Assembly (NCBI GenBank): GCA_003290165.1
Contig: QNQO01000640.1
Coordinates: 1-64,000 of the forward strand
Source: Berberis thunbergii
Taxonomy: Eukaryota > Streptophyta > Magnoliopsida > Ranunculales > Berberidaceae
DNA: 64,000 nt
Direction of reading: 5' to 3'
The translations under genes and the position numbers were made by a program. Positions 18,778 through 64,000 of the stretch are shown here, in pieces (positions within the stretch are counted from its first letter, which is position 1; every line of letters starts with the position of its first letter). The notes below the pieces were generated by a model. It did no database searches. It was not told where the DNA came from and was given only the letters and a program-made list of their open reading frames with translations.

Positions 18778-19414
18778 TCATGTACAATGAAGATGTTACT
18801 TCATATAAAATGTAGATCCATTACCAATCCAATATTTAAGAAGATGCGCTAAATGTTTCTGGAATGACCAAGTGGGAGTTTTTCTTTCGGTGTGGCCTTT
18901 CCTTTGGTCTACAACCTCTCTTACAGAAAAATAAGGATGGTCTCTAAATTCTTCGAACCTTCTACCTCAAGCGTGGAACCTCTTTCCTAGAATAAGATCT
19001 AATGAATCTTTGTAACCGCTTCACTTTCTTCTGCACAAATTTGTCAACCATAATAGAGATGTCATTGAATGGGATTTTGTCTACGAAGGTTTCTTGGTTG
19101 TCCATATTGATGGTACAATGGTTTTCATCTCCTCATAACTCAGCCTCATTTAACTATCTGTAGTTCGATAAAATGGTATGGATGAGCGACACAAGTCATG
19201 GGAACTTTTTTTTTTAATCTATGCAAAAGGGGTTTATATTACAGTAATGCTTGATGATTCTATGATGACCACCAAGAGTTGATTGATCATTTCATCTTCA
19301 TTGCTCTTCTAAGTGAGTATTTGGTTACACTTTTTTCAATGATTTTGAAGTTCTTGGCGGCAAGGTATTCATGAGCTATGACTAAAATTTGTGTGATTGT
19401 ATCTATTCCTCTTC
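18778..19414. other. Spacer between Helitron array and Athila element, no gene seen
   Basis: AT-rich sequence with stop codons in all frames. I recognise no protein or repeat family. Confidence 0.5.
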
Positions 19415-19805
19415 TGATATTCACATAATTATTACAGAATATATCCCTTAATTTGTACATGTTAGTGTTTCGATTATTATATTTTATAGTAATTATTTCG
19501 TTTTAATATCTTTGCAGGAATTTGAGCTTAAACGATAAATCCATATTAAGCAGTCACAAACGACAATTAGGCAATTTCAATGGTGGTATCAAACAAAACA
19601 CAAACCTACACCCAACACCTAGCTCACAACCTAAAAATCCACAAACCTAAACCTTGAAACCTAAAACCCACAAACCTAAACCTTGAAACCTAATTCATAA
19701 CCTAAACCCCATCCATAACCTAATCCATAACCTAAAACCAAACCCAATCCTACCCTCATTGATGAATCTACCCCTCATCTCATCCATATTCATCTTCTCA
19801 TTCTC

Positions 19806-19813
19806 TATAAATA
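19806..19813 (+). promoter_or_regulatory. TATA box of the 5' LTR
   Basis: TATAAATA in an otherwise mixed context, conserved in both LTRs (30,856-30,863 in the 3' copy). It is the likely core promoter of the genomic transcript. Confidence 0.7.
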
Positions 19814-20060
19814 GAGGAGGATAGGGTGAGAATGAGGGGGGAGAAAAGAGAAGGGAAAAGAAGCAAATTAGGAAGAAAAATAATCCTCTTTCTCTCAAAT
19901 TAACCTCACCCTCATCACCACCACCTATCCCTCTTCCACTCATCCATCTCTCACTCACTCCACTCACTCAGTAGTCACCACACCCTCGCCACCACAGTCA
20001 CCTCGCCATCGCCACCACCGAGCACCACCACCAATTCCGCCACCGTCCTCGCGCCATCAC

Positions 20061-20093
20061 CGCGAAACAGGGGCGTGACAACCCTGTTTCGCG
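20061..20093. other. Perfect 12-bp inverted repeat in the LTR
   Basis: Arms cgcgaaacaggg (20,061-20,072) and ccctgtttcgcg (20,082-20,093) flank a 9-base loop. It is repeated identically at 31,111-31,143, and further partial copies of the arm lie within the next 300 bp. Confidence 0.85.
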
Positions 20094-21417
20094 TCCAACT
20101 TTCACTTTGCCACCACCCTCGGCCCCCCTCCCTTGTCCACGCACCATCACCACCTCCGCACGAGCACCGCCACCGCGCGAAAACCACCGCGAAACAGAGC
20201 ACCGCGACCCTGTTTCGCGTCGCGACAGAGCACTCGCTGCTCCTCCCTCTCGGCCTCTCTTCGTCGCGAGCTCCTTCCTGTCCTCACCTCTTGCGACCAC
20301 CGTCACCACCACGACCGAGAACCACCGCCTCCTCCTCGCGAACAGAGTTCTTATCGCGAAACAGGGAGCTCCTGTTCCTCATCTGTTTTCTCTGTTTTTC
20401 TCTGTTTTCTTAGTATTTCCTCACCTTTTTCTCTTCTTATGCAGGTTCTAGAAGCGATTTGAGGTCGAGGACGGGCCAGAGGAGCGAGAACGAGGCCGAA
20501 AACCGCGCTGTCGCGCTGGAGAAGACGAGCGGCTACTGTAGCGCCACTGTAGCAGAGGCGGGAAGGGGTTATTTCGGTTATTCGGCTATTCACACCCCCG
20601 GTTTTGCTCTGTACCACCACAGAGTGCTTTTGGCCAGTTTTCTCGGGATTCGCATCCGTGCAGAGATGATTTCCACCTCCATTGACGTTGTGCCCACCGC
20701 CACCATGACCAGCTAAACCATTCGCCAAGGCTACGATGAAACCACGGGATTTCCTAGAGTTTGTGTATTTAAATTTATTATTTTCTTTATGCTTAACGTT
20801 AAACACATTTGATTTATGATTTTTAATAAATTGCTTTCACCGATTATATCCTGATTAATTATCTAGACTAGTCGGTAGTTAGAAGTACCCTTTGTTGAAA
20901 TTCAAAAGTCTGATTTAATCAATTAATCTGAATCTGTGATTGTGTGTGCCGTAAGAAGACACACAATGCTAGGGATTAGGATTAGTTAAAATAAACCTGT
21001 GATTGTGTGTGCTGTAAGAAGACACGCAATTCTAGGAGTTTATACCTATGCTTAAATCAATTGTGAACTTAGATTAATCTTTAGGTTAGTCGTGTTAAAT
21101 CTTGAAAACAATATCTTTGATTACACAAATCTCAAAGAACCTGTGGTGGATTCAATGCCTTGGTTTCCTTTCTCATATTATTTAAAACTTTTTATTTTGT
21201 TTTTAATTTGATTTTTAGTTTAGATTTAAAAATGCTGTAACCCCCTTTCCTATAAATTAGTTTAATTAAATTCTAAAATTTCAATTGCATCCACCTTCCT
21301 CGTGGGATCGACCCGTACTTGCCGTTGTCTACCAGTTAGGCACCGTGCACTTGCGGTTATTACAAGTAGGTTAAATTAACCTGTTAATTTAGGTTAGTTA
21401 AATCCGCATCAAGTTTT

Positions 21418-21435
21418 TGGCGCCGTTGCCGGGGA
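21418..21435 (+). other. Primer binding site (tRNA-Asp type)
   Basis: tggcgccgttgccgggga is complementary to the 3' end of plant tRNA-Asp and is the usual site in Athila and related elements. It starts exactly where similarity between the LTRs stops. Confidence 0.85.
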
Positions 21436-22849
21436 ATTTGCGGTGTAATTGAATTTAAGATTTATTTTTACTAATTAAAAAAAAATCATAAAAATACAAA
21501 AACAATTTAAAAAATAAAAAATTTAAAAATTAAAAATTTTAAAAAAAAATTTCTTATTTTTATTTTTATTTTTATTTTTATTTTGTTCTTTTTACACTCA
21601 TTTTCTGTTGATTTTGCAGATTACACGCTTCTCGAGGAAATTTGACGATCCTGCAAAAACATCAAGAAAATTTTTATTTTTTATTTTGTGAGGAGAGTTG
21701 TACTTTTATTTTCACCTCGTTTTATGAGTGTGCGATGTAATAATTTTTTGAACTTTACTATTTTTCATTTTGTTTAATTTAAAAAAAAAAACCCAAAATT
21801 TTCTAAGTCAAAAGAAATTATAGGGAAACAATTTTAATTGTTACTCAATAAATTTTTTATGATTTAGAAATCCGACTTCTAAGACCAAGACCAGTAAATT
21901 TATTTGCATGTGCTTGTGTGCTGATTGAAACATATAAAGAGAAGTCGGACTTTTTTTTAATTGTGCTAACTTTTTGTGCAGAACGGAATACGCACACTGT
22001 AAGTATTTCTATCACACGCAATGTATTAGCGACCAGGGTGCTTGGTGTAATTGGTTGAAATTGTGTGATTGGTTGTTAAAATTCTGTAATTGTGGATGTT
22101 AAACTTTAGTATTTCATAATAAGCAGACCCAGCTTCTAAATAGAAACTGGTGGGACTTGATATCCCCACCTCATTACTCCAGCTGTGTGCAACCAATAGC
22201 CTCACATAATTAAAATCAATTAGCAAGTTAGATAGAGCATCTCGTAGGTTCGGTGTTCATAAGACAACCAAGACCAAGGTAAATCCAATAATTTTTGTGT
22301 TGACCAAAGCTAAAAGTGACGATGGGTTTAATCATTCAATGAACTCCGAGAGGCCACTGCCACAAGGGTAATTTACCCGGTACGCCGAGTCATAAGTAAG
22401 CTACGATCCACAAGAAGGATTGGTGTAACCAACAGTTTTCGGTTAGGAACACAAGCCTCAAGTGTGCATTTAACATCACATCGTTCTCACATCTATTGGC
22501 TTACAGAGCGGTAGCACAAGGAAGTACTTAATTGGACCATTGTGACCTCCTTCTCTTGTGCGATAATCCGGTTTCTTTGAAACAAAACTCTAGCCTACTG
22601 ATTTTGAACTTTGCGGTGTAAAGTGTATACTCTTAGGATCAACTTGTAGCACCCATTATTCTGTCATAAAGATTACATAAGAAATAATCTGTCCCCCAAA
22701 GATAAGAAGATAATTAATCTCAAAAACACTAATTGCTTAGGGAGGCATTTTTTCTTGTGCATCAATTGATTGCTGATTGTGTTTGAGTCTGTGTGTGAAT
22801 TTTTTAAGGTTAGCAAACATTTCAACCCTCACTTGGTGTAGACTTGTTT
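21436..22849 (+). other. Untranslated leader of the Athila-type element
   Basis: About 1.4 kb without a long open frame. The first 150 bases are A/T homopolymer-rich. Many short upstream ATGs occur, so translation of gag by plain scanning would be hindered. I see no packaging signal that I can name. Confidence 0.6.
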
Positions 22850-25800
22850 ATGCGTCTTTGGGAACGAGATTCAAGGGGTCGACTAATTAAAGAGGATCCT
22901 GTAGAGTTGTTTGAAGTCCCCATTGACCTTCTAGAATCATTCTCATTATCAAGTGAGACCACTGAAATGGCCGAGGAGAGAGCATTTAAGGATTATTTTT
23001 CTCCACGTTCCAATAACACCCCATCTTGCATTGTCTTGCCTGAGACCAGTGCAAATAGCTTTGAGCTAAAACCATCAATTATCCACCTTTTGCCTTCCTT
23101 TTATGGTCTAGAAAGAGAGGATCCCTATCTTCATGTCAAAGAGTTTCTTGACATATGTGCTACTCTGAAATATCCCAATTTTTCTGATGATTCAGTTCGT
23201 CTTAGGCTGTTCCCCTTTTCTTTAAAAGATAAGGCGAAGTCATGGTTAAACTCCTTAGAAACTGGAACCATCAACACTTGGGATGCCCTATCAGGAAAAT
23301 TTATGACAAAATATTTTCCTATTCATAAAACAAATGCCATCCGAAGAGATATATCTAATTTTCAACAGAAAGAGGGTGAGCATTTCTATGAATGTTGGGA
23401 AAGATTCAATGAACTCATTGCTAGGTGTCCCCATCACGGCTTTGAAAAGTGGCGCTTGGTTCAATACTTTCAAGACGCGTTAACCCCTCAAAACCATCGA
23501 ATGATTGACGCCACTAGTGGTGGGTCACTTATGAAAATGTGTGCTAATGAGATTTGGGAATTCTTTGAAGCTATTTCTGAGAATTCTCAACAATGGGATT
23601 ATTCAAGAAAAGACATGGATAGGCGAAAGGGTGGTTTGTATGAAGTGAGGGATACATCATCTACTCCTCATCTTACTCCTTCTTCGAGGTTGGAAGAAGT
23701 TGTAATGACAATGGCACAGAAGATTGATGCATATCTGGAAAAGTCTCAGCCATCAGTCCAAACCAATGTTCCATCCGAGGTTTGTGCTGCATGTTCAAGT
23801 TCTAGTCATTCCACATCAGACTGTCACTTGAAAAATGAGTACCCTGCTTATTTTGCTGAACAAGTCAATGCATTCAATACCTTTAGGCAATCTGGTTATA
23901 ATCCACACTCAAATTTTTACAATCCAGGTTTAGCTAAACACCCTAATCTCTCATGGGCCCATGGTCAACATCAAGGAGGCCCAGTTGTTATCCCTCAAGC
24001 TCCTCGAGCTCCAATTCCTGCTAATAGGCCTCAATTCAATCAAGATGTTCCTCTCTCTAACACTCAGAGTTTTCAGGATACATTGAACCAATTTATGCAG
24101 ATAACAGGAACCATACTCGAACAAAACTCTCAGGCTATCACCGAACTAAGAGCTAATTCTCAACAACAATCTCAAGCCATCCAAAAGCTTGAGATGGCTG
24201 TGAGTCAAATAGCAAAATCCTTTCCTGAAAGAGAAGCAGGAAGATTCCCTGGTCAACCCATTCAAAATCCTAAGGGCAAATTCGAAATAGGCAGTACATC
24301 TCAGCCACGAAATGAAGATGTCAAATCTATCATAACCCTTAGGAGTGGAAAACAAGTTGACAACCAACTTAGAATGCCTAATTTGATTGATCCTGAAGCC
24401 CAATCTACGCCAAGGCAAGTCACACCTCCATCTGAGAAGGAGGCTGATAAAGCCTCATCTTCTCAAGAGGATCATCATCTTGACTCTAATCCCACCAAGG
24501 CATCCTATACGCCTAGAGCCCCATTTCCATCGCGGTTAGCTCCGGCGAAGAAAGGAACAAATGCCAACGATATAATGGAAATTTTTAAACAAGTTCAAAT
24601 CAATATTCCATTACTCGAGGCCATTAAGCAAGTTCCCTCTTATGCCAAGTTTTTGAAGGATTTGTGTACACAAAAGCGAAAAGTAAATGTGCACAAAAGA
24701 GCCTTCCTAACTGAGCAAGTTAGCTCCATCCTTCAACACAAAACCCCACCTAAGTACAGAGATCCTGGTTGCCCGACTATTTCATGTGTGATTGGTGATC
24801 ATATGATTGAGAAGGCACTGTTAGATTTAGGGGCAAGTGTTAATCTATTGCCATATTCGGTATATGAGCAATTGGGTCTTGGTGAGTTGAAATCAACTCA
24901 AGTGACATTGCAATTGGCAGACAGATCTGTCCGAGTCCCCCGCGGTATGTTAGAGGATGTGATCATTCAGGTGGACAAATTTTATTTCCCTGTGGACTTC
25001 ATAGTCCTGGACACACAACCTGTTCACAATCCCTCTAGTCACATTCCAGTTATTTTGGGTCGTCCATTTTTGGCCACATCCAATGCTATCATTAACTGTC
25101 GAAATGGAATCATGAAATTATCATTTGGTAACATGACCGTCGAACTCAACGTATTCAATGTAAGTCAACAACCTCCCGAGTCTGAGGACTCCCTTGAGGT
25201 TAACATGATTGAGAGATTGGCGGAACATTCATTTCCTCAGTTTAATGATCCTTTAGAGGCTTGTTTGACTCATTTTAATTTAGACTTCGATATTAATGAT
25301 TCCATCAGGGAAGTCAATGCTTTGCTTGATTCTACCCCTATAATGGAAACCAGATATAAATGGAAGCCTAGGGTGGAAACTCTTCCACTCAGTGAGTCAA
25401 ATCAAGTCCCTTCCGTTGAACAACCACCCAAGCTCGACCTAAAAGTATTACCTGACAACCTCAAGTATGCATTTTTAGGTGTTGACGATACCTTACCTGT
25501 TATTATTTCATCTGCATTGACTGAAGAACAGGAAGGAAAATTGCTAGATGTTTTAAAAGAACATAAAACAGCACTTGGGTGGACTATCGCGGATATTAAA
25601 GGAATAAGTCCAACCGTTTGCATGCATCGCATTCATATCGAAGATAATGCCAAAGTATCGCGTGAAATGCAACGTAGACTTAATCCTAATCTAAAGGAAG
25701 TTGTCCGAGCTGAAGTGCTCAAATTGTTGGATGTGGGTATAATCTACCCAATTTCGGATAGCCCTTGGGTAAGTCCTGTTCAAGTTGTCCCAAAGAAGTC

Positions 25801-28339
25801 AGGGGTAACGGTAATCAAGAATGACAAGAATGAATTAGTACCAACCCGCATGACCACGGGGTGGCGAGTATGTATTGATTACCGTAAGTTGAACTTGGTC
25901 ACAAGGAAGGATCACTTTCCTCTCCCTTTCATTGACCAGATGCTTGAAAGGTTAGCCGGACATGATTACTATTGTTTTCTTGATGGGTATTCCGGTTATA
26001 ACCAAATCCCCATTGCACCCGAGGATCAAGAGAAGACCACATTCACTTGTCCCTTTGGAACTTTCGCATATCGGAGAATGCCCTTTGGATTGTGTAACGC
26101 ACCCGCTACTTTTCAGCGATGCATGCTTAGCATCTTTTCCGATATGGTTGAGAGGTTCCTCGAAGTGTTTATGGATGATTTCTCAGTATTTGGTGATTCA
26201 TTTGATGAATGTCTACATCATTTAACTTTAGTGTTAAATAGATGTGTGGAGAAAAATCTTGTCTTAAATTGGGAGAAATGTCACTTTATGGTACGACAAG
26301 GCATTGTTCTTGGACATGTAATCTCACACAAGGGAATTGAAGTCGACAAAGCCAAAATTGATTTAATTTCAAGTCTTCCGCCTCCAAAGACGGTTAAGGA
26401 AATTAGATCTTTTCTAGGCCATGCTGGATTTTATAGGAGATTCATCAAAGATTTTAGCAAAATCGCTCGTCCTTTATGCAATTTACTTGCTAAAGACGCA
26501 GTTTTTGTTTTTGATGAAGATTGTTTAAAAGCTTTTGAGAAGCTCAAACAATTATTGACGTCAGCTCCAATCATCCAATCTCCTAATTGGAACTTTCCCT
26601 TTGAGATTATGTGTGATGCTTCCGACTTTGCACTCGGAGTTGTCCTAGGACAACGATTGGACAAAAAGCCACATGTCATTTATTACGCTAGTAGAACTCT
26701 ACAAGACGCACAACTTAATTACTCTACCACTGAGAAAGAGTTATTAGCTGTAGTCTTTGCTCTAGATAAATTTCGGTCTTACCTTATAGGATCCAAAGTA
26801 ATTATTTTTACTGATCACGCGGCGTTAAAGTATCTTTTCTCTAAAAAAGATGCTAAACCTCGCTTAATTCGATGGGTCCTATTGCTACAAGAATTTGATA
26901 TTGAAATTCGGGACAAGAAAGGTTCAGAAAATGTTGTAGCTGACCATTTATCTAGACTTCTAGTAGAGTCATCTAGCAAATATTTACCATTGAATGAGTC
27001 ATTTCCTGATGAGCAATTATTTGCTCTCTCCCAATTACCTTGGTATGCAGATATTGTGAACTATCTTGTTACAGGTCAACTTCCTTTGAAGTGGTCCAAA
27101 CAAGATAGATCCAAATTTCTTGCTGAGGTTAGACATTTCTTCTGGGATGATCCATACTTGTTCAAGTATTGTCCTGATCAGGTTATCAGGAGATGTGTTC
27201 CTGAAAGTGAATTTCACAGCATCATCTCATTTTGTCATGAGCAAGCTTGTGGTGGTCATTTTAGCTCTAAAAAGACAGCTGCAAAAGTTTTGCAGAGTGG
27301 TTTTTATTGGCCTACCCTTTTTCGAGATACTCATGCCTTTTGCACCACTTGTGATCGATGCCAACGAATGGGTTCCATCTCTCGTCGCAACATGATGCCC
27401 CTTACTAATATTCTTGTGGTTGAAATCTTTGATGTTTGGGGTATTGATTTCATGGGACCATTCCCGCCTTCATTTGGCAATCTTTTCATCCTTGTTGCCG
27501 TGGATTATGTGTCCAAATGGGTAGAAGCAATACCATGTAAAACGAATGACCACAAGGTTGTGGTAAGATTCTTGAAAGATAATATCTTTTCTCGTTTTGG
27601 TATTCCGCGTGCCATTATAAGTGACGGTGGTTCTCATTTTTGCAATAGACCGTTCGGGCTATTAGTAAAGAAATACTCCATCACACATAAGGTTGGCACC
27701 CCCTATCATCCACAAACAAGTGGGCAAGTGGAGATTTCCAATCGGGAGATTAAAAACATTCTAGAGAAGACAGTCAGACCAGACCGTAAAGACTGGTCTC
27801 AACGTCTGAGTGATGCTCTCTGGGCTTATAGAACAGCATTTAAGACCCCGATTGGAATGTCTCCATATAGGCTTGTTTTTGGAAAAGCATGTCATTTGCC
27901 TGTGGAATTGGCACATCGTGCATATTGGGCCATCAAGACATTCAATTTTGATATGGTCAAGGCTGGATCACATCGTAAGCTTCAACTTGATGAGTTGGAA
28001 GAGATCCGAAATGATGCGTACCACAATGCCAAAATCTACAAAGAACGTACGAAGATATTCCATGATAAATCCATTCTTCGTAAGTCCTTTGAGCCATCTC
28101 AAAAAGTTCTATTGTTCGACTCTCGGTTACGACTTTTTCCGGGCAAGTTGAGATCTCGGTGGTCTGGACCTTATATTGTGAAAACAGTGTTCCCACATGG
28201 AGCTGTGGAGATCGTTAATCCTAAGGATGGCCATGTATTTAAGGTAAATGGTCAACGACTTAAGCCATTCTTAGAGTTACCTCGATTAGAAGTCGAAGTT
28301 GATGTAATCCTATTAGAGGACCCTGTGTATCAGAAGTGA
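22850..28339 (+). CDS. Gag-Pol polyprotein of the Athila-type element, intact
   Basis: One frame of 1,829 codons from the first ATG (22,850) to TGA, with no frameshift between gag and pol. Domains in order: a retrotransposon Gag domain at about 80-215; a CCHC zinc knuckle at C312-C315-H320-C325; an aspartic protease with DLGAS at 659-663, the Leu variant of D-S/T-G common in this plant lineage; reverse transcriptase at about 970-1150 with FMDD at 1107-1110; RNase H starting near CDAS (D1256); an integrase zinc finger of HHCC type near 1460-1505; an integrase core with D1533, D1592 and E1628 (D-x35-E); and a GPY/F-like C-terminus without a chromodomain. The product makes and integrates element cDNA from cytoplasmic particles. 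All key residues I can check are present, so the element could be autonomous for Gag-Pol. Confidence 0.95.
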
Positions 28340-30420
28340 GGATCTTTTGGGTTTTGTCGGGCTGATGACGTTAAACCAAGCGCTCCTAGGAGGCAACCTA
28401 GCTTTAGTTGTGTGTCTCTGCTGTTAGTCTGGATTGATTTTCGAGTACCCTATTTAGTTGTGTTTCACTCTTACTCGTTAGCTCCGTAACAGTTTTGACT
28501 AACAACTAGCTTTCTTTTTAGTTTTCTTTGTTAGTGTCGAGTCTGCATTTTATCGATTTCTAATGAAAACTCCATGATTCTTATGTTTGTGAGCCTCATT
28601 GATGGATGACTTCTTGGAAATTGGTACAATCTTCACCGCGGTAATACTGTTCTAACCTCCTCTCCTGTACTTATTTCATTCATTTGTAAGATTATTTTGT
28701 TAAACATTGAGGACAATGTTTGGATTAGGTTTGGGGGTAGGATTCATGAGTCGGTGAATTTTTCATTTTTTTTTCGTAGTATTTGAAAAGGTGAATTTTT
28801 CATTTTTTTCGTAGTATTTTCTTTTCTTTTCTTGAAAAAAAAAATGCTTTTCTGTCAAGAAAACTTGGTCTTTTACGAGTATGAAAATGGACTTTAAATG
28901 TTTTATGCTCAAGAAAATGCAAGCCAACTTGACATATTGGTATATTGATAAAAGACTGAAAGTTTATTAAGATCCTTAAGTTAGATCTAGTTCATAAGAT
29001 TTTTCAACTCGATTATCTTTGCACCATGAGCCATGTTAGCATAACTTGAAGTTGATGAGTGAAATATATACTAGAAAACCTTAGAATAATAGTGGAGACT
29101 TAACCCTGAAAGCTTTGAGCCTTTCTATTTTTCTGAGGGTTATACATAAACTCTGATTTTTCTTGAGTCTACATTATCTCGTTGATGATCTCATTATTTT
29201 CATTCTTTTGATCAATTGCTTTGGAAATGACATAAAAATTGAATTATTACACTAGAACTTCTTGGCTTATTCAATTGAGATGTCATAATACTGACCCGAA
29301 CTTAGGAAATGATCTAGGCATTTTTTTTCTTTAAACCATTAACTAGCCTTTTAACTTACCCATAACATTAACTTTTTGTAGCCTTTTGAGCCATAGATTA
29401 ACCTTTTATTTGTTAACCCATTAACCTTTACCCAATTTTTCTGGGAATGTGTACGGATGAATATACTTGGTGTAAAAAGGGCATGAAAGATCAAAATATG
29501 AATATTTCATAAATCCTCTATGAAAGAAAGAAAAAAAAAAAAAAAAAAAAAGGAAACAGAAGAAGAATGTGAATGAGGATAAAGATGTGAGAATGAAGAA
29601 AAAATTGATGGTGCGCAACATTGATTTATTCTTGACAGCCCTAATTGTACGTATAATGGGTGTATACATTCCTAGAAATTTTTGTTAGAATCCTTTGACA
29701 TTCCTTATTAACTATTACCCAAGCCCCATTACAACCCAACAAAGTCCTAGTTGATCTTAGGTAAAGGTTGGTTTCGTAGATGTGGAGATTTAATAACCAA
29801 GACCTATGGTGTTTGATTCAACATTCCCAAAAGCAATTGATATTCCTGTCCATGAGATCATGTTCATTCCATTCTTGAAAAGTCCGTTCTTCATATTACT
29901 ATATGTGAGATGATTGTTTTCCATCATTTACTCTTTTCCTCACATATAAACTGAGTGAAATATCAAATCTCTGAGTGTTTTGTTGTGAGTGACATGAGAG
30001 GTTTGAAGTCAAAACAAACTTTCTACAGGAGATTTAGTCATTGTTTTACTCTGAAATGAAAAGTTATGTTGACAGTGCTATCCACACACACACATTGAGT
30101 TGAGGATGATTATGAATTTTTTCTAACCTTTGGAGAATATTAAATTATTTGGAGATTTGTTGATACACTAAAATGACACTGTTGGTTTCTTGCATTTCTT
30201 GAAGTTTTAAAATGAACACAGTTTGACCAAGTTTTGATTGAGTCAGTAATGTTTGTGGGTAACATGTCTGGAAACCCTCACGAGACTATAACTCGTCCAC
30301 TGGAGGTAATCTAGGGGTTTAAAGCCTTGTTGCACGTGTAAGGTAAGTGCAACCGATGATTCCTGCGAAAGTGAGTTAGGATTTTCTTTTTATTGTTTTG
30401 CTCGAGGACTAGCAAAATAT
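28340..30420 (+). other. Noncoding 3' region of the Athila-type element
   Basis: About 2.1 kb where Athila elements often carry an env-like gene. I find no convincing frame: the longest open stretch is a minus-strand low-complexity one over a poly-A run near 29,530. A PPT-like copy, aggtttgggggta, lies at about 28,726-28,739, just after the phrase gaggacaatgtttgg, which is widely conserved in such elements. Confidence 0.7.
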
Positions 30421-30435
30421 AGGTTTGGGGGTATT
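30420..30435 (+). other. Polypurine tract before the 3' LTR
   Basis: aggtttgggggtatt immediately precedes the tgatattc start of the 3' LTR, the expected place for plus-strand priming. Confidence 0.75.
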
Positions 30436-32456
30436 TGATATTCACATAATTATTACAGAATATATCCCTTAATTTGTACATGTTAGTGTTTCGATTATTA
30501 TATTTTATAGTAATTATTTCGTTTTAATATCTTTGCAGGAATTTGAGCTTAAACGATAAATCCATATTAAGCAGTCACAAACGACAATTAGGCAATTTCA
30601 ATGGTGGTATCAAACAAAACACAAACCTACACCCAACACCTAACTCTTAACCTAAAAATCCACAAACCTACACCCAACACCTAGCTCACAACCTAAAAAT
30701 CCACAAACCTAAACCTTGAAACTTAAAACCCACAAACCTAAACCTTGAAACCTAATTCATAACCTAAACCCCATCCATAACCTAAAACCAAACCCAATCC
30801 TACCCTCATTGATGAATCTACCCCTCATCTCATCCATATTCATCTTCTCATTCTCTATAAATAGAGGAGGATAGAGTGAGAATGAGAGGGGAGAAAAGAG
30901 AAGGGAAAAGAAGCAAATTAGGAAGAAAAATAATCCTCTTTCTCTCAAATTCACCTCACCCTCATCACCACCACCTATCCCTCTTCCACTCATCCATCTC
31001 TCACTCACTCCACTCACTCAGTAGTCACCACACCCTTGCCACCACAGTCACCTCGCCATCGCCACCACCGAGCACCACCACCAATTCCGCCACCGTCCTC
31101 GCGCCACCACCGCGAAACAGGGGCGTGACAACCCTGTTTCGCGTCCAACTTTCACTTTGCCACCACCCTCGGCCCCTCTCCCCTGTCCACGCACCATCAC
31201 CACCTCCGCACGAGCACCGCCACCGCGCGAAAACCACCGCGAAACAGAGCACCGCGGCCCTGTTTCGCGTCGCGACAGAGCACTCGCTGCTCCTCCCTCT
31301 CGGCCTCTCTTCGTCGCGAGCTCCTTCCTGTCCTCACCTCTTGCGACCACCGTCACCACCACGACCGAGAACCACCGCCTCCTCCTCGCGAACAGAGTTC
31401 TTATCGCGAAACAGGGAGCTCCTGTTCCTCATCTGTTTTCTCTGTTTTTCTCTGTTTTCTTAGTATTTCCTCACCTTTTCTCTTCTTATGCAGGTTCTGG
31501 AAGCGATTTGAGGTCGAGGACGGGCCAGAGGAGCGAGAACGAGGCCGAAAACCGCGCTGTCGCGCTGGAGAAGACGAGCGGCTACTGTAGCAGAGGCGGG
31601 AAGGGGTTATTTCGGTTATTCGGCTATTCACACCCCCGGTTTTGCTCTGTACCACCACAAAGTGCTTTTGGCCAGTTTTCTCGGGATTCGCGTCCGTGCA
31701 GAGATGATTTCCACCTCCATTGACGTTGTGCCCACCGCCACCATGACCAGCTAAACCATTCGCCAAGGCTACGATGAAACCACGGGATTTCCTAGAGTTT
31801 GTGTATTTAAATTTATTATTTTCTTTATGCTTGAACGTTAAACACATTTGATTTATGATTTTTAATAAATTGCTTTCACCGATTATATCCTGATTAATTA
31901 TCTAGACTAGTCGGTAGTTAGAAGTACCCTTTGTTGAAATTCAAAAGTCTGATTTAATCAATTAATCTGAATCTGTGATTGTGTGTGCCGTAAGAAGACA
32001 CACAATGCTAGGGATTAGGATTAGTTAAAATAAACCTGTGATTGTGTGTGCTGTAAGAAGACACGCAATTCTAGGGGTTTATACCTATGCTTAAATCAAT
32101 TGTGAACTTAGATTAATCTTTAGGTTAGTCATGCTAAATCTTGAAAACAATATCTTTGATTACACAAATCTCAAAGAACCTGTGGTGGATTCAATGCCTT
32201 GGTTTCCTTTCTCATATTATTTAAAACTTTTTATTTTGTTTTTAATTTGATTTTTAGTTTAGATTTAAAAATGCTGTAACCCCCTTTCCTATAAATTAGT
32301 TTAATTAAATTCTAAAATTTCAATTGCATCCACCTTCCTCGTGGGATCGACCCGTACTTGCCGTTGTCTACCAGTTAGGCACCGTGCACTTGCAGTTATT
32401 ACAAGTAGGTTAAATTAACCTGTTAATTTAGGTTAGTTAAATCCGCATCAAGTTTT
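30436..32456 (+). repeat. 3' LTR of the Athila-type element
   Basis: It matches the 5' LTR. Visible differences include an extra caaacctacaccc-type repeat unit near 30,650, loss of an aacctaatccat unit near 30,780, an 11-bp deletion near 31,590 (tagcgccactg missing) and scattered single changes. It is followed by unrelated sequence from 32,457. Confidence 0.92.
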
Positions 32457-52240: not shown

Positions 52241-52254
52241 AAATGAGCTTTTCT

Positions 52255-52660
52255 TATTGTCGAGGAAAGGGGCGACGGGGGTGGGGTTTTACCACTCACC
52301 CCCTCGAGATTCGAGCAGCTACGCATCTCAAAGGTGTAGGCGTGCATCTCGAGGGGGATGAGCGATCACACCCACCCCATCGCCCATTTCACCGCCATTT
52401 AGAATTTTTTGAAGAAAATATATTGTCTAATATCAAAAACATGTTATTCATTTATTTGATCTCAATTAATCTACACCGTCACACGATATTCTAGCTTCAA
52501 AAATTCTAAATGACGAGGAAATGGGTGAGGGGTGGGTGTGACCGTTCATCCCCTCAAGATACATATCTATATTCTCAAAATACGTATTCACAAATCTCGA
52601 GGAAGATGAGCAGTAATACCCACCCCTTTCCTCGACGCCTAGAAGGGCTCATTCTAGCTT
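52255..52660. mobile_element. Compound foldback element (MITE-like)
   Basis: Outer arms start gtcgaggaaagggg on the left (about 52,258) and, on the opposite strand, gtcgaggaaagggg on the right (about 52,640). Inside, an arm at about 52,349-52,414 (gatgagcgatcacaccc) is the imperfect reverse complement of 52,497-52,560. A smaller palindrome around cctcgagat lies at about 52,300-52,355. No frame of interest. Confidence 0.7.
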
Positions 52661-52859: not shown

Positions 52860-54447
<1,588 letters not shown>

Positions 54448-54989
54448 GTAAGTTTACAAAATTGTGTCTTAATCTTGTCATTCTAGATTTACTTATTTTA
54501 TTTTTCAACTTATAGAAATTTTGTTTTCCCTCCGGTTGATTCATAATTCATATTTTGCATTTTATTTGTTGGGCAAGCGGCAGAGACTGTAATTTCTTGA
54601 CAAGATATACATGTGTGTGTTGTGCCTAATGGTTGTTTGAGTTCAGTCAACTTCTAGAATTTCGTTAGGGTAAAAATAGAGGTTGTGTTGGATAGTCTCT
54701 CTTCCTTTTCTTCTTTCGTTTGGTTCAATTCTTATCCAAAACTCATATATAATCTTAATCCACTAGATGTTGAGTTTTATAGGAATCACATGATTACACA
54801 ATTTGATAATGGACAAGAATGTTGTTTCCCGTGTACTGTCGCTTCTTAGTGGTACCAATGGATTTTCGTACAACACGCATAAGCTTCAAGAGTCTCTTCA
54901 TAACTGCTGTTTAGTTGGAGACAATTGTAAGATGACCGAAATCATGGTTCTTCAGTGGGCTAAAATTTTGATCCTAGTTGGATCATGCC

Positions 54990-56377
54990 CTCTGATGCAC
55001 TGACTCTCCGTAAAATCCCCGTATCACGTGTCAAATACGTGTCGGATATGGACACGCGCTCGACACGTATTTGACACGTTGTCAACAGTCAAAATTCGTT
55101 GACTGAAACCGAAACGTCTTGGACACGGTCCAGACATGGTCCAGACACGTGGTTGCAAATAACCTGTCCTCTTCGATTGATCATTCACACATTTTTCAAA
55201 CCCTAATTATAGAGAGAACAGAGAAAAGAGGGCTGAACCAGAGACAGAGAGAGAGGGAGAGATCGATCGATCGAACCACAGTGTTGGACGAAGCTAGAGA
55301 GAGAGGGAGAGATCGATCAACAAAGATCTATTGACAAAGAGAGAGGGAGAGAGAGAGAGAGAGGTGTAGAACCTTCGGTTGCAGTAGAGACAGGATAACA
55401 TTCTTGGAACCGGAACCATTTCGGTCGATGGGTTCTTTCGGTTGCTTCTTCCAACTAAAGAAGAAGAACAAGTGATGATGAAGTCGTCATGGCCAGAATG
55501 CGCCATTGAAGAAAACAACAGAGCTTCTTCTCTGTTTTTTGTTTTTTGAATGAATAGAGAACAAGAAATGATGAGTAGAGATGAGAGGGTTTTATAGAGA
55601 GTTCGCGAAGAGAGAGGTCCAAAAAGCTTACAAAACCAACCAGTATGATTGGTTGGTTGGTTGTGTACGCACAAATGACTCTGTTGCCCCTCTCCCTGTC
55701 TTTGATCGATGGAGACAAAAATACAAGATGAAAATTGCAGCTCTCGCGGAGTAGTGGGATGATTGATTATATCATGTGGATATGTCCTTGCAAACTTGCC
55801 ACATTTAATCTTCGAGAGTTGTATCTTTTTGGTTTTTTTTTAATTTTCTTTACATGTAAATTGGATTCTCAATTGAAAGCAAACATAGGGGATGATTCAA
55901 ATTAAAACAAAAACAGAGCTAGCTCTAATTTAGATGATATGATCCATTTAATTGTAACATATTCTAATCGTATATGCTGATTACATGGTAGTTCCATCAA
56001 TATCACTCATTAACTTGAACAATGTACCTACGTACAATGTAGATAGATTGTGCTTCTTAACCAAAAATAAGGTGCAAGCATTCAATTTTTTTTATAGCCC
56101 CACATTATAACTATGAATTTATGTTAACATACATCATCCATTTTTCATCATCCATCATGAATATTTTACAATTTGATGGAAGTTAACATACATATATAAT
56201 CAAAAGTTTCAAACACCACCACCTCTGCGCACTACCTTCCTTTTACCTTGTTTGTGAGGGGGCAGAGTTGTAAAATAGGTGAGAGAAAAAATAAAAATAT
56301 ATTAAAAAATAAGTTTGACCGTGTCGTCGAGTCCTATTTTTTTGAAAATTATCAAGTCGCCGAGTCCGTGCATCATT
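54990..56377. mobile_element. Mutator-like element (MULE), 1.39 kb, nonautonomous
   Basis: A perfect 9-bp target duplication, gatcatgcc, flanks it at 54,981-54,989 and 56,378-56,386. The copy B paralog at about 41,140 has the site once. Terminal inverted repeats are short and imperfect: tgatgcactgactc on the left and, from the other strand, tgatgcacggactc on the right. Left subterminal sequence has repeated cgtgtc/gacacg motifs. No transposase frame. The interior contains a ga-rich tract and a possible zinc-finger fragment. Confidence 0.85.
55340..55460 (-). pseudogene. Possible C2H2 zinc-finger fragment inside the MULE
   Basis: On the minus strand the frame reads VPRMLSCLYCNRRFYTS. This resembles the start of the plant EPF-type zinc finger (C-x2-C, then FxSSQALGGH), but the sequence runs into a ct microsatellite before the QALGGH part and the two His. 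If real, it is a captured exon edge, as in Pack-MULEs. Short and therefore uncertain. Confidence 0.35.
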
Positions 56378-56386
56378 GATCATGCC

Positions 56387-57417
56387 ATGACTACTGATCT
56401 GCTCCACCAGTGGGAGAATATGTTGCTTGACAGTTATTAGTTGCTTTTCCCTAGATTTTTTAAAGGATTTTCTTTGTTAGTTTTTTTTTTGGTTGTGAAC
56501 TTCCCACTAATTGTAATGCTTTGTTCTTCCCTTTCATGGAGAGCCTGTTTTATTGACTCACACACACACCAAAAAAAAATTGCTTTTTTAAACCTTTTGT
56601 TACTAAAGTAATAAATGTAAACATCACAGAGAAGCACCAGGGTTTGCTTGTGACCGACGAGAAATGTATGAACAATTGGGATCAGTTGGTACTGTAATTC
56701 AGTCAACTTAATACTTACTTTTAGTAACTTACTGTATAATCTTCTGTTTCTTGGTTTAGTGTGGACTCTTGTGATAAAATCACACTAAAACTTTCAGTGT
56801 TTGCTGGCACGTTGTGAACAGCTGACATAAACATGCCATTGTTAGGATGCACCCTTATACTTGTAAGTGGTACGTATGACTAAAAAAATAAAGATCATAT
56901 CCGTTCTTGCTTTTTTAAGACTTGGAAGTGATTAATGCATGTACAATTGTACACCATTTATGTTAAGGAAGCTGCCATAAGTGGCATGTTCATGTTTTTA
57001 AATTTTGAGATAGAATTGTATGAGGTATTACCTTTCAGATAACAATTAGCATCAGTTTTGTGCATACACTTAGTAGGCATTTATTTATCACTTGTATGTG
57101 CTCAACATTTGATGCAAACCTAATGAACTTATTAGGGGTATTTCGGTCTGACCTTGGTTAGCATTGTTGAACCAACGGTCAATATCCAATTTCGTACCCA
57201 ATGTATAGTTAGTCCAAACTTTTATGCCCAATGTGAAATACCTCCAAAATGTAAATATCCCTAATGCAAAGATTAATGGTAGTTGGCAACACGAATTAGC
57301 AAGTAAACCATGTTCATGAAGTATACCCTTCTCAACCCCATGTAGTCGTGCTTATTTTGAGTTGTTCATTTGTTATTGGGACAGCAAAATATTCTGTTGA
57401 GGTTGCTAGTCAGCTAT
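56387..57417 (+). other. Remaining intron 5/6 sequence of mMDH copy C
   Basis: It runs parallel to copy B from about 41,150. At about 57,119 it jumps from the intron-5 phrase gatgcaaac to the intron-6 phrase taatgaacttatt. This deletes about 0.77 kb including exon 6, and atgcaaa is present at both break points in the undeleted copies. It ends at the CACTA insertion. Confidence 0.85.
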
Positions 57418-57680
57418 CACTACTACAAATATAGGCTTGCATAGCGCTTAAAAATAGGCTTAGATAGCGCTTTTTAGCGCTATCTAAGCTACCGCTATGG
57501 TAGCTTAGATAGCGCTCAAAAAGCGCTATGCAAGGCGCGTACTTGAATAACGCTTCGTTAGATAGCGCTTAATCAAGGCGCGTACTTGAATAACGCTTCG
57601 TTAGATAGCGCTTTATTAAGCGCTATCTAAGCGTTAATTTTTTTTTTTAAATTAGCTTGCATAGCGCTTTATGAGCGCTA
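57418..57680. repeat. CACTA subterminal repeat region
   Basis: More than ten copies of agcgct, mostly as gatagcgctt or its complement, in both orientations, with perfect palindromic pairs around 57,465-57,530. A 40-bp unit starting caaggcgcgtacttgaataa occurs twice in tandem at 57,531 and 57,574 (period 43). In En/Spm such repeats bind the element's own DNA-binding protein. Confidence 0.85.
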
Positions 57681-57874
57681 TTTAATTTTGTTGATTTTTT
57701 TTAAATTTTTTTAATTTTTTTTGATTTTTTTTTAATTAGCTTCTAAAGCGCTATTTACTTTCGGTGTATTTTTTTTATTAACTACCATATAATATTTTTT
57801 ATATATAATATTTAATATAATAATGACAACGTTCAATCAATCAATAAAGACACAACATGATAACTAACTGTTTC

Positions 57875-58068
57875 TCATTCATTCAAAATATAATTTAAGC
57901 ATTCATACAAAATTGTTAATATGCTATCATATATATACACCAGCTTTTTTGGCCACGAAATGAAATGGCCAACAGCTTCTCCTACAGTCCTAACTTCGTC
58001 TGTACATTGCGGCACCGCTGAATGTTTCTCAGATTCTACCGCCACTTCAAATTGTATCCTCGCATAAC
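57875..58068 (-). CDS. Terminal exon of a CACTA-encoded protein (partial)
   Basis: The minus-strand exon starts after an acceptor at 58,069 and ends in TGA at 57,875. It encodes a C-terminus with DEVRTVGEAVGHFISWPKK. I recall the VGEAVG...WP pattern from C-terminal parts of plant En/Spm (Ptta) transposon proteins, so I take it as the element's own last exon. It ends about 460 bp from the left terminus, as expected if the element is transcribed toward this end. Upstream exons are replaced by captured sequence. Confidence 0.5.
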
Positions 58069-58146
58069 CTGAAATTGCATCATGGCATTGTATAAGTATA
58101 ACAACACACACACACACTAAGGGGGAAATTGTAGAAGTTGTGATAC

Positions 58147-58330
58147 CTGATATGCAGAGGAGGCAGTGCCAAGGAGGAAATTGTTTGGGAATGGAGAAGA
58201 ACCATCTTGTAGTTTGATGTATGGGATCAGCAAGGAAACCAAGTTTGGTGAAATCATTTTCCATCTCAACATAGTCCTCATTTACAGCATGGACAACAAC
58301 ATCAATCAAAATCTGTTTATTTTGCTGCAA
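58147..58330 (-). pseudogene. Fused captured fragments: ABC1-like kinase exon joined to beta-glucosidase (GH1) exon
   Basis: On the minus strand an acceptor at about 58,328 opens a segment encoding VVHAVNEDYVEMENDF and LGFLA, which matches the C-terminal part of plant ABC1K proteins. It then joins, in another frame, a segment encoding DGSSPFPNNFLLGTASSAYQ, the N-terminal signature of GH1 beta-glucosidases, which ends at an intact donor (58,147). The two pieces come from different genes, so the joint was made inside the transposon. Neither piece is functional alone. Confidence 0.7.
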
Positions 58331-58490
58331 ATACAGAAGGATAAAGAGAGTGAGCATCATGTTGCAAATAGACCAGAAGGCAACCTGTTCCTGTGCATGT
58401 ATATGTGTACCATATGGCACAGCACAGCTTCTAAAATCTAAAAATAGTAAGCTATAACAGGTATCAATATGTGACTTACATGAAACTAAG

Positions 58491-58550
58491 CAATTTCTAT
58501 ACATGTGAAAAAAGAGTTTGCTCACAATTTCTATACATGTGAAAAAAGAG
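58491..58550. repeat. Short direct duplication, period 34
   Basis: The phrase caatttctatacatgtgaaa plus aaagag occurs at 58,491-58,516 and 58,525-58,550. A second, similar local duplication (aaaacaccatacccggctga) lies at about 58,637-58,695. Confidence 0.8.
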
Positions 58551-58758
58551 CAGAGAAACCAATACTCATCATACCAATAGATTTGTATGTAGATTTGCCT
58601 TAACATCCCAAGTTGCAACCATATACTTGTAAGCAGTAAAAACACCATACCCGGCTGACCTTGTAAGCAATAAAAACACCATACCCAGCTGACTCTAGCC
58701 CAATCCCCTGCTGAATTCCAGCACACCATCACACTAACAGCAGAAAAAAAACCAAGCA

Positions 58759-58787
58759 ACAGAGTGCTCCAGGACAGAGCACTCTGT
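58759..58787. other. Perfect 11-bp inverted repeat
   Basis: Arms acagagtgctc (58,759-58,769) and gagcactctgt (58,777-58,787) with a 7-base loop, in noncoding sequence next to a joint between captured fragments. Function unknown. Confidence 0.75.
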
Positions 58788-59287
58788 CAAAACAGATCTT
58801 GCTGTCCAGTGTTAGTGAAATCTGAAAATGATGCTAAATGCTTAGCTCAAATCCCCTCTCTCTGCTGTTTTTAAGCTATTAAAAATTCATAAACTTGACT
58901 GTTTGTTTGATTTTTCTGACAGGAAATTTTCTCTAGATACATGGCTCAGGATCTAGCTAAAAATCAATTTTAAACTGTTCTAAGTATAAGGTTTTTGGTT
59001 TTGGCATTAGTGATTCCTGAAGCTGACAATATCTAAGTTAATTCTAAGACCCCAAACTGTCTTTGAGGTGGTGGTCCTGGCTCCATTGGCACATGAAGCA
59101 AGTCTAAAATGTAGAATCAAACCAGACCAATCAAATATACATATAATGCACCAATTAAAGTCTGCAAGGGATTTTCTTTTTCATAAATGAAAAGCGGGAA
59201 AATGATTACTAACCATCATTTATCAATAGAACTTCAGAGAATCATGAAAAGAAGCTTCTATATAATAGAGTAAAGTCGCATTTTAAC
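58788..59287. other. Unassigned CACTA interior
   Basis: About 500 bp without a recognised exon. It could be intron or downstream sequence of the captured uridine kinase fragment. Confidence 0.4.
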
Positions 59288-61034
59288 CTGATCAAGAACA
59301 TGTCCTATATCTCTACCCTTCTCAACTGTATCACGCCTTATCCTCCTTGCCAAGCGTACGTCAGCATCTGCACTGAAAATTTTTAGCCATGAAGACCACG
59401 ATAAAGAATGCCCTCAAATGCTGATACAAAAGCATATCTAGTTTAATCTACCGAAGCTACAATATGCAAAACCTCATAAAAAATTGCATAAAATCCATTA
59501 GAACATTACTACATAACAACTAACATGACGAATATCAGCCGAATCCTGCATCGGTTTTAGAATACATTAAATGTAGATGTAGAAAACTCAAAAGGCTTCC
59601 AGATGATAGGTGATTCAATAAATAATAAATATATCTAGACATCTCAAAGTGGAGAAGAGATTAATGTAAGAAAATTACAAACAGAAAAACAGATTAAAAA
59701 AACAAAAGTTCAAAAATAAAAGACTCTTGCAAGCAACTATAACATGTCGAAAGTAAAAACGGCCAAAAAGAGATCAATTCGGCTACACATCCATTCAAGG
59801 GAAATGGCCCAACTCAGACATGAATAAGACACTAAGACGAACCCCAAACATGTAAGTGGATCTTGGGTTGTTCATACACAACATATATGTGGAGCAAGTA
59901 AAGACTTGATAAATATTTTGAGATAAGCTGTGGTTCTACATTAATAAAGACAAACTGGAGTAAAATACTACAGTAGCAGGTAACAAAGGAATGCACTGGT
60001 ACATGTTGAAGGCACTTAAAGTGCCAGTATGACTCAGTACACAATATATAATGTGTCTCTTCATGAATGTCTATGTAAGAAAGAAACTTAATTTTCAAAA
60101 CTAAATCCTGTGTCACGTATTGGACACTCCAAGGCACAGTCCATGTCACGTATTGGACACTCCAAGGCACAGTCCACGCTTAGATCATCAACTTTTTCTT
60201 CTATCTTTTGAATGTTTCACTTCTCTATAAATATTATCAATGTATTATGGCAAGTTGCAGTACATAGGCAGCAATATTGATCAACAAATGAAAAGATATG
60301 CACAATATAATGGGCAGGCAAGAACCTGTATCAACAAATATCTTCATGTTCATCATTCCCCGTACGCGAGGATCGTGGAAAACTAGGATCCCTACCAAAA
60401 GTATCACATCTGAAGGATTGACCTGCCAAATTTTTATTAAACATACTGTTTTGTGGTGATGCAAAATGATGTAATTCATCTTCTACTCCATGTACTATAG
60501 ATGCACTTTCCAGGGTACGATAAAAAAGAAGGTTCCAAGGAAATATCTGTCAGTTTTCATAATGCACTTTGATGGTGAACACCTTTTAACAGAGAGATTG
60601 CTAGCTGTCTGCCTGAAAACGTGTATTTTGGGTAGAATACATACAGCAGGAAAATGCCAAGTGTCAAAATAAAAAGTGAAGTAAGAAACTTATAGAACTC
60701 AAGAGTCTTCTAAAACTAAAATGTTATTTGAGAAGAACACTTCTTTCAGAAGCATTGAATGTCCATTCTTTCATTGAAAAAACAAACACTGAAATCTGAC
60801 ATGGGCAGCCGTCGGTAATCAATATCTGATAAAGTGGATGCAAGATACTGCACAATCTTTTCTAGAAATATAAAGTAAACCAATGTGTTATTTCCTTTAA
60901 GCAAGCAGAACATACCCTCCTCTTTGGCAACACATTGTTTCTGTAACTCATGAAATCATAGTTCGGAATATCAACTGCCTGCCCATGCATCAACTTGTCC
61001 ATACAATTTAGTAGTTGTTCAGTGTCAAAGGCAT
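59288..61034 (-). pseudogene. Captured uridine kinase-like (UKL) gene fragment, three exons
   Basis: Exons on the minus strand with GT-AG borders: 61,034-60,916, 60,422-60,326 and 59,367-59,288. Phases join cleanly and encode DAFDTEQLLNCMDKL, VDIPNYDF, NPSDVILLVGILVFHDPRV, MKIFVDT and DADVRLARRIRRDTVEKGRD. This is the central part of plant uridine/cytidine kinase proteins, which phosphorylate uridine in pyrimidine salvage. The P-loop exon before it and the C-terminal UPRT-like part after it are not visible. Introns are kept, so genomic DNA was captured and not mRNA. The three exons have no stop, which suggests a recent capture. It is in the same orientation as the element's own exon. Confidence 0.85.
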
Positions 61035-61358
61035 CTGAGAACAAGACCCAGAAATCTCACATTAAAAACCATATGCAATTTAAAAGCAAAACAATGAGAA
61101 AAATTACTATAACGTATTGAGTACATTTGAAAGTACAAACATTCTTTTCAAAAAACACCATGCACTGATGCAATTCATCAAATATAAGGAAGCACATACA
61201 GAAGGGCGAAAAGTAATTTTCAGTGTCATATTTCACATTTAAACTACCATAATCAAAGCCGTCTTAAAAAACTCAAGCCAATTTCTTGACGAACAACACC
61301 TAATCAACATCCAACAAACAAGAAATCAGGAAATTGAGCATTCTCATGGCTTATTTAC

Positions 61359-61688
61359 ATTGTTGGTGTGCCAGTACTTGTGGAGGTAATTAGGAGCGGG
61401 TCACCAAGGAACAGAGAGAATGCTGCTGCAGTGCTGGTGCATCTGTGTTCAGGAGAACAAAGATATCTGGCAGATGCCCAGGAGCTTGGGATTATGGGTC
61501 CACTTTTGGATCTAGCACAAAATGGTACTGACAGAGGCATGCGGAAGGCTGCTCAGCTGCTTGAGAGAATGAACAGGTTTGTCGAGCAACAAAAGCAGGT
61601 CCAAGCGCAAGTCGAGGTCCAGGCTGAGATTCAGATGCAGCAATCACATTCACAGCTACCATCTTCAGCAGGCTGTGTACATAGATAA
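61359..61688 (+). pseudogene. Captured 3' exon of a U-box E3 ligase (PUB13/SPL11-like ARM repeats)
   Basis: The plus-strand frame encodes [33 protein letters not shown] and [19 protein letters not shown], then a Gln-rich tail to a TAA at 61,686. This matches the last ARM repeats and C-terminus of the PUB12/13/14-SPL11 ubiquitin ligases. The U-box and earlier repeats are absent, and no suitable ATG precedes it. The left edge near 61,359 has no clear splice acceptor at the family boundary. It lies opposite in orientation to all other fragments in the element. Confidence 0.85.
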
Positions 61689-62820
61689 CTTCTCCTATTT
61701 GACTCAGGTTTCTTTGTTTCACGATAATTGAGACATTTTGCTTGATTAGGAGGCAAAAGTGGAAATATCACCTCCCTGACAAGTCATTCGTTTGTATCTT
61801 TGGGTTGGAATTCAAGTGTCGGGATACTAAGAGTTCAAAAAGAAGAAAGCTTGGAAAATGCGATTGCAAAAATGATAGACATCTCAATGTACCATGTATT
61901 GTTTAAACTTCCTCGGTTTTTATGGGAGGAAACCACTTTTATACCTACAAACTGTTGTGTTGCTCTTGACTTCTGCTTTTGAAATTTGCTATGACAAGAA
62001 ATAATGAAAAGAATATATCACCTGATAGCGAGTTGCTTCCTGTGACAGTTTGTGGCTACAGGCTTTGATTACTGAAGGCGGAAGTGGATTTCTCTAGCAC
62101 TTTTGCTTTTGCTTTTGGTTTATGAAGGTTGGGTAGCTTACACTGGTAGTGAAGATAGAAAGCATAAGAAGAAGAGCATCATAGCAGTGATAAAAATCGC
62201 TGCATTTAAGATTGAATCACCAAAATCACTCTTTATCGCATTAATTTATCAACTGTGTTTAATTTTGCAAAGGTAACACTATCTCACCTCTATTAGAGAT
62301 ATTTCACTCCATCTCCAAGGTCATTGTAGAAGTTTGGCCTTGTAATTCCATCCAACTTAGAAACACTGGAGAGTCTTCAATAAGTCAGTTATCATCACCC
62401 TGTCCATGAAGAGCTAGGTTGGTCACATATTGATGTGCTTCAATACCATGTTTAAATGATTAACCCAACTGAAATCTATTACTTGTACAATTGAAACAAT
62501 AACTTTTAATTTACTTACTTGAAATTCACTACTGAAATTAGAACTCCAAGAGAGGCAACAGTGTTCGGTAATAGCTTCCATTTTCAAATACAGCTGCTTG
62601 CAAGACAGCAGATTAAGAAGCAAAAATTCAGGAAAAAAATAAAAATTCCCTGACTCTGGCAAGCCCCATAAAAGTGTGTAACATTGGTGTCATCTACTCG
62701 TGTTTAGTCCTATAATGTTAGTTGTAGATTCCTTAATTAAATATTGCATGAAAAAAATATGAAAAAAATGAACTACAGCCAATATATATTGAACTAAATG
62801 CTTGATATATTAGTTCTTAC
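61689..62820. other. Probable 3' UTR of the captured U-box gene and unassigned sequence
   Basis: The first 350 bp follow the U-box stop without structure and may be its 3' UTR. A minus-strand segment near 62,590-62,530 after tgcaagcag could be another exon edge, but I do not recognise it. Confidence 0.35.
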
Positions 62821-62892
62821 CAATGATCCACCCATTAAAGGCACGAGCAAAGAAGGAAGCATCACGGTAGTTCCCAGCATTAAGATAAAGTT
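62821..62892 (-). pseudogene. Captured single exon of a nucleobase-ascorbate transporter (NAT-like)
   Basis: An exon of 24 codons bounded by an acceptor (gatttcag) and a donor (gtaagaac) on the minus strand. It encodes FILMLGTTVMLPSLLVPLMG, which matches the first membrane region of plant NAT/NCS2 permeases (Y-I-L-x-L-G-T-x-V and LVP-x-MGG). The exon is short, but both splice sites and the motif agree. Neighbouring NAT exons are not visible. Confidence 0.55.
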
Positions 62893-64000
62893 CTGAAATC
62901 CCAATATGATGGTTTCAGCTGCATGAGTAAGCTTGTAAGTCATATATAAATGTAAAACAGACAAAACGATAGAGAAGTCTCAACCATTATGTTCCGACAT
63001 GCAAACCAGTGACAAGTGACATGAAAATTCCAGTGCAGATAGTTCAATTTTAAAAGTACCTTTGACAGGATGTAATGAAGTGGTTTCATTAATTGACCTC
63101 TCTATACTGTATATGAAACAAAGTCACCAAGCACACTACTACTAAAATTTAGGGCCAAATTGACATCAGCATCTTATAAAAGCTTCCCAATTTAGAAGCC
63201 TAAAAGAAACATCGATGAAATAACTCTTAACAATTTATTCGAACTAATGTCCTTCCTTTTCTACTCCTTGGGTACATTGATACCAAAGAGATTAACAGAA
63301 TATAGCTCACACACTCCCACTACTTTGAAGATCCTACCCACAGATGACATTAAAAAGTTTGATCTTAACGTAATTAATTATGAAAAGAATTTAACACAAG
63401 TAAAACTTATTCAATGTAATCGATTACATAGAATATACTGTATGGTGTCTGAAAAGACATGCTAAATTATAGAGAAGTAGGAAGAGATCTAACTTAATGG
63501 ACATGTTCTCAAGTTCTCCTTTTAGACATATACAAAATAATAAACAACAGAAATAAATGTTCTAAATTCATAAGACAATTCCACTCTCTTCAGAGCATTT
63601 ATTTTCTAACAAACAAAGATTTGAGTAACAACTTTTCTAAGCCCAACAGAACCATACCATTTAGCGTATAAATGTCTGACCTAAATTCACCAACAAATAC
63701 AATTGAAAAACACAAAAATGGAGCGAGTGAAGAAGAGAGAACACAATATTACTAAATCCAACAAAATAGTTTTCACGATTAGCAAAAGCAACGATTCTAG
63801 GTAACCCATTAGGATGATCTCTACAAAATTAAAATTTTGAAATGGTAGAGGCAAACTTCACACTCTTTAGTGCATTATCTTATAATTGAAACTACTCTGC
63901 AACTTCTTAAACCTCCATTACAAACTATTATGAAACCCCCTGTTAAACAGGCTATTCTGCAACATCTTAAAAACTCCATTGAACAAATTACTCTGACACT
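62893..64000. other. Unassigned CACTA interior up to the window edge
   Basis: AT-rich. Small open frames only, none recognised. I see no CACTA right terminus before 64,000. Confidence 0.4.

Follow-up and report, generated by a model that had tools for sequence, protein, structure and literature searches.

A CACTA transposon end in the last intron of a mitochondrial malate dehydrogenase copy of Berberis thunbergii, with putative captured pieces of about five unrelated host genes

Introduction

The closest described counterpart of the locus reported here is Tgm-Express1, a soybean CACTA element in the wp allele of F3H, which carries five host gene fragments within 5.7 kb (PMC1947982; this and the other published accounts are cited from partial text). 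In maize, Pack-CACTAs account for the most distinct loci among the Pack-TYPE superfamilies (PMC8903248). Pack-CACTA and other Pack-TYPE elements, known from Arabidopsis, maize and rice (packFinder), consist of host coding DNA between CACTA termini, and are defined by both termini, the target duplication and clustered copies. CACTA elements of Chenopodium and grapevine also hold host gene pieces, and Ulp1/Peptidase_C48 domains are reported to belong to them, with one captured gene named per element in the available text (PMC8978399, PMC2528002). Here we describe a locus from Berberis thunbergii, contig QNQO01000640.1, positions 1 to 64,000 of the forward strand; this whole stretch of 64 kb is referred to as the window. 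The DNA from position 57418 onward is, with high probability, one end of a CACTA transposon that holds pieces of about five unrelated host genes and lies in the last intron of a mitochondrial malate dehydrogenase (mMDH) copy.

The locus resembles the Pack-TYPE elements in having a CACTA terminus next to host coding DNA, although it is known from one end only. It differs from Tgm-Express1 in the plant and in the donor genes; moreover, both the soybean element and its chimeric transcripts have been studied, whereas the present element is visible at one end only and sits in a host copy that is decayed in its own right. One of the pieces captured by Tgm-Express1 is from malate dehydrogenase, the target in the present case, which we take as coincidence. 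About five donors are involved here, in contrast to the single gene named for each of the Chenopodium and grapevine elements. The initial annotation had considered this number of donors unusual, an assessment that we do not share because of the fragment count in Tgm-Express1 and the locus numbers of the maize Pack-CACTAs.

Insertion site in the malate dehydrogenase copy

The CACTA terminus CACTACTACAAATA (57418..57431, plus strand) is the sole exact copy of this sequence in the window, both strands having been searched. The window contains several mMDH segments, of which copies A, B and B' are uninterrupted where copy C breaks. At this point copy C continues from CAGCTAT into CACTACTACAAA, while copies A, B and B' continue from CAGCTAT into CTTGTACC, the first base after the junction, C, being common to copy C and the uninterrupted copies. 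The coincidence of terminus and loss of homology with three paralogs bears out the initial annotation, in which a CACTA terminus was said to break mMDH copy C at 57,418.

The left flank (57121..57417, plus strand) corresponds to the last intron of copy C and ends 71 bp before the last-exon start of the uninterrupted copies. It differs from B' by 7 substitutions in 297 aligned positions plus 6 gap columns, from A by 10 substitutions in 287 positions plus 11 gap columns, and from B by 15 substitutions in 297 positions plus 15 gap columns. The break maps after 47464 in B', whose last exon starts at 47536, and to 3646 in A, whose last exon starts at 3718; the insertion is accordingly placed, by alignment with these copies, in the last mMDH intron, 71 bp upstream of the last exon, which begins GTAAAGCTAGG. 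Since the three other copies are without the insertion, the duplication that produced copy C probably came first. From the empty site, the left copy of the 3-bp target duplication is predicted to be TAT.

Copy C (52900-57417) shows decay beyond the insertion. Its exon 1 has a frame change between RRCFASDTA and PERKVAVLG. At 57119, copy C lacks a stretch of about 760 bp that B and B' retain and that contains the PFFASKV exon.

Terminal region of the element

Short repeats of the TAGATAGCGCT type, in both orientations and forming direct and inverted families, occupy 57430..57760 and thus span about 330 bp behind the terminus. Short direct and inverted subterminal repeats of this kind are a stated criterion for CACTA elements (PMC8978399). 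The TAGCGC core has 12 matches in the 383 bp at the element end versus 8 in the rest of the window (63,617 bp), and is absent after 57748 up to position 64000.

A remnant of an element-coded DUF8039 protein follows at 57932..58072 on the minus strand, with 87% identity over 47 residues to Asparagus officinalis P0001. This protein, the best DUF8039 match, bears PF26133, and a second Asparagus DUF8039 protein also has the Ulp1 domain PF02902. DUF8039 is presumably a CACTA-linked protein. Because the remnant protein reads toward 57418, this side is probably the 3' end of the element, and the 5' end would then lie past 64000. The remnant had been missed by the initial annotation, which let the gene fragments begin at 58,100; the pieces are present, and their start is corrected to about 58147. 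In asparagus, CACTA elements are the most abundant DNA transposon class reported, at 2.1% of the genome (PMC4014616); among the papers on asparagus that were listed, judged by titles and the starts of abstracts, no title deals with gene capture by a CACTA element of this plant.

The order of these parts bears on the proposal that the gene pieces are a mosaic, produced by rearrangement or misassembly, which came to lie beside a CACTA end by chance. Under this proposal neither the coincidence of the left break with the terminal motif nor the position of the DUF8039 remnant, which follows the terminus and ends 74 bp before the first gene piece, would be expected, and we regard this proposal as very improbable.

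Gene pieces

The most extensive piece corresponds to a uridine kinase-like 3/4 gene on the minus strand, represented by exon a (60916..61034), exon b (60326..60422) and exon c (59288..59367), each with AG/GT borders. The three exons, with their two introns kept, join as an open frame of 99 residues, in agreement with the initial annotation, which had noted that introns were retained. The joined frame matches Pfam PRK at 1.3e-21, and the single exons do so at 7.8e-6 (c), 8.9e-5 (b) and 0.15 (a); in the PDB, the piece matches uridine-cytidine kinase 2 at 6.5e-23. A protein search with the uridine kinase and U-box pieces matched 3468 proteins, and the 120 that were listed comprise 103 uridine kinases and 17 U-box proteins. 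Each of the three uridine kinase exons is matched by 103 distinct proteins in this list.

The U-box piece (61368..61688, plus strand) is the C-terminal ARM end of a PUB13-type protein, including the stop codon, with 73% over 104 residues to P0014. All 17 U-box proteins listed match from 61368 onward. The results from Pfam are Arm at 1.3e-6 and ARM_PUB at 0.0017, the latter below the ARM_PUB cut-off. An ABC1K1-type exon piece is located at 58229..58324 on the minus strand, preceded by an AG acceptor (ttgcag). This interval is covered by 108 of 108 matching proteins (best 91% over 33 residues), 107 of which contain the ABC1 domain PF03109, the remaining one, P0214, having no listed domain; nothing was found for the piece in the PDB or Pfam. 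The NAT4-type nucleobase-ascorbate transporter (NAT) exon lies at 62821..62918 on the minus strand with AG/GT borders (best 80% over 30 residues). A search that included it returned 9 proteins among 243 candidates, namely 7 NATs, all of which match the exon, and 2 DUF8039 proteins, while neither Pfam nor the PDB gave a match for the NAT piece itself.

The fifth piece, at 58147..58228 on the minus strand (SPFPNNFLLGTASSAYQ), is likely to derive from exon 1 of a GH1 beta-glucosidase, as it has the N-terminal motif of the family followed by a GT donor, gtatca, at its end. It is directly fused with the ABC1K piece in a single exon of 178 bp, with the junction at 58228/58229. Judged on these matches, the uridine kinase, ABC1K1, PUB13-type U-box and NAT4 pieces are all firm assignments. 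The initial annotation had named the same five genes with NAT as probable; NAT is now firmer than claimed, and it is GH1 that should be called likely.

Most splice borders and reading frames in the pieces are intact, as they would be if 58,100-64,000 held normal genes at their own locus. However, only a piece of each identified gene is present, ABC1K and GH1 occur in a single exon, and the terminus interrupts the neighbouring mMDH copy. A normal gene cluster was therefore rejected, and its probability is practically nil. An unbroken set of such genes, which the initial annotation had said would speak against its interpretation, was thus not found within the window. The empty-site comparison, the terminus, the subterminal repeats, the DUF8039 remnant and the four firm and one likely gene pieces make a multi-gene Pack-CACTA, as proposed initially, the best-supported reading of the locus.

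Search for the right end

The right end sought is the inverse of the terminus, TATTTGTAGTAGTG. No right CACTA terminus with up to three mismatches was found on the plus strand after 57418 to 64000, so that none precedes the fragments, an outcome that the initial annotation had listed as contrary to its proposal. At this threshold the terminus search gave 20 matches in the window versus 9.3 expected, and no shuffle reached 20; by eye, several of the 20 near-terminus matches represent one repeated sequence, AATTTGAAGTAGTT. Neither TATCTTGTACC nor the last mMDH exon recurs within the window after 57418. Since no right terminus, TATCTTGTACC or last mMDH exon was found, the element either runs past the window or has lost its right side.

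The near-terminus CACTACTACTAAAA at 63134-63147 (2 mismatches) was considered as a right end and rejected, as it has the same orientation as the terminus at 57418. It may be the end of a nested element or a chance match.

No transposase was found among the selected open frames scanned within the window, and the CACTA element is probably non-autonomous. Ten selected open frames in the gaps gave one weak Pfam match (DUF5966, E value 0.1) and none that was convincing, and no match reached the gathering score in Rfam over 57000-64000.

With no right CACTA end within the window and gene pieces on both strands, it may also be proposed that the CACTA end is real and that the gene pieces were brought in by a nested Helitron or Pack-MULE, or by several insertions. 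Maize Helitrons and Pack-MULEs with several host gene fragments have been described (PMC1947982). A strict scan of 57800-64000 for a Helitron CTRRT end with a GC-rich hairpin found none, a result of little weight, since 60 shuffles also gave none and there was no positive control. As regards Pack-MULEs, no inverted pair of more than 30 bp occurs in 57400-64000 among the 25 longest of 40, and an element ending past 64000 would escape this comparison. We consider such nested insertions unlikely.

Several further results weigh against a multi-gene Pack-CACTA. With the right end unseen, the stretch from 57418 to the NAT piece is presumed to be continuous, and the gene pieces would lie inside the element provided that its right end is past 64000. 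The GH1 piece is weak in all tests, with a Pfam E value of 0.054 (below the cut-off) and a PDB E value of 0.45, and no GH1 proteins are among the matches of the two protein searches whose queries included it. The DUF8039 piece itself matched no Pfam family. There are no Asparagus-named proteins among the 120 listed of the 3468 uridine kinase and U-box matches, or among the 108 ABC1K matches, a comparison that covers named, unclustered entries, and no donor from that species was identified. Finally, no TAGCGC relics occur between the pieces, so that capture by fusion of neighbouring insertions, while possible, is unsupported.

Decay of the pieces and the 303-codon frame

For uridine kinase, near-invariant columns were defined from 74 distinct sequences among the 103 matches, and the piece differs at 2 of 60 of them. 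The corresponding figures are 12 sequences among 17 matches and 2 of 46 columns for U-box, and 5 sequences among 108 matches and 3 of 28 columns for ABC1K. One of the uridine kinase changes (E to V) affects a residue shared by all 74 sequences. Private residues number 3 in uridine kinase, 5 in U-box and 3 in ABC1K, compared with maxima of 5, 4 and 2 when real family members are left out one at a time. The private-residue count of the uridine kinase piece alone is not distinguishable from that of a real gene; some real uridine kinases have at least as many, a point in favour of normal genes. The pieces look like mildly decayed, splice-competent exons.

An open frame of 303 codons runs on the minus strand from 58786 to 57875, through the ABC1K exon, the GH1 piece and the DUF8039 remnant. 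Passing through the GH1 junction, it keeps the native frame of both the ABC1K exon and the DUF8039 remnant, and splicing of the last uridine kinase exon to it would also preserve the frame. In shuffles of the element, 0 of 500 reached 303 codons (the largest frame had 212); the 462-bp intron-like part was open in 0 of 5000, and the 156-bp GH1 junction in 15%. The longest open frames elsewhere have 138 codons (1-19000) and 181 codons (33001-57417). Several points speak against any meaning of the frame: native coding sequence makes up 79 of its codons, the frame was noticed only in retrospect, and its intron part, by eye, has many cysteine, tryptophan and phenylalanine residues and does not look like protein. 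The frame is most likely due to chance. That the element serves as an exon-shuffling unit, with captured splice-competent exons expressed as a new chimeric protein, is a prospect to which we would give only a small chance.

Two-copy tandem duplications occur in intron-like stretches of the element, at 58626-58693 (34 bp) and 60111-60176 (33 bp).

Mechanism of capture

For the multi-gene Pack-CACTA, we propose that the element had earlier acquired, by transduplication, genomic DNA of about five unrelated genes together with introns. Capture would have been at the DNA level, because the two uridine kinase introns are kept with the splice frame open. The route of uptake might have been aberrant repair or fusion of neighbouring insertions. 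The Rubin and Levy mechanism of capture is said to be aberrant gap repair. It is cited in PMC8978399, and fusion of neighbouring insertions is a published idea of capture (PMC8903248; PMC13317346). The loaded element would then have transposed as a unit into the mMDH intron.

Other features of the window

An apparent LTR retrotransposon is located at 19415-32456, with a pair of direct repeats of about 2 kb that are 96% identical. Between these LTR-like repeats, an uninterrupted frame of 1841 residues (22814-28339) resembles gag-pol, by eye only. An imperfect palindrome of about 400 bp (52242-52653), 66% identical to its own reverse complement, is perhaps a foldback element.

Implications

Multi-donor gene capture by CACTA elements is already known, and the present element adds another case; the picture of gene capture by plant transposons is unchanged. 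What the locus would place beside the classic soybean case is a CACTA element with several donors, whose left end is well delimited and whose empty site lies in the same window. It would also be a clear example of capture at the DNA level that preserved introns and splice sites, and owing to the 303-codon fusion frame it can be tested whether a shuffled product is expressed.

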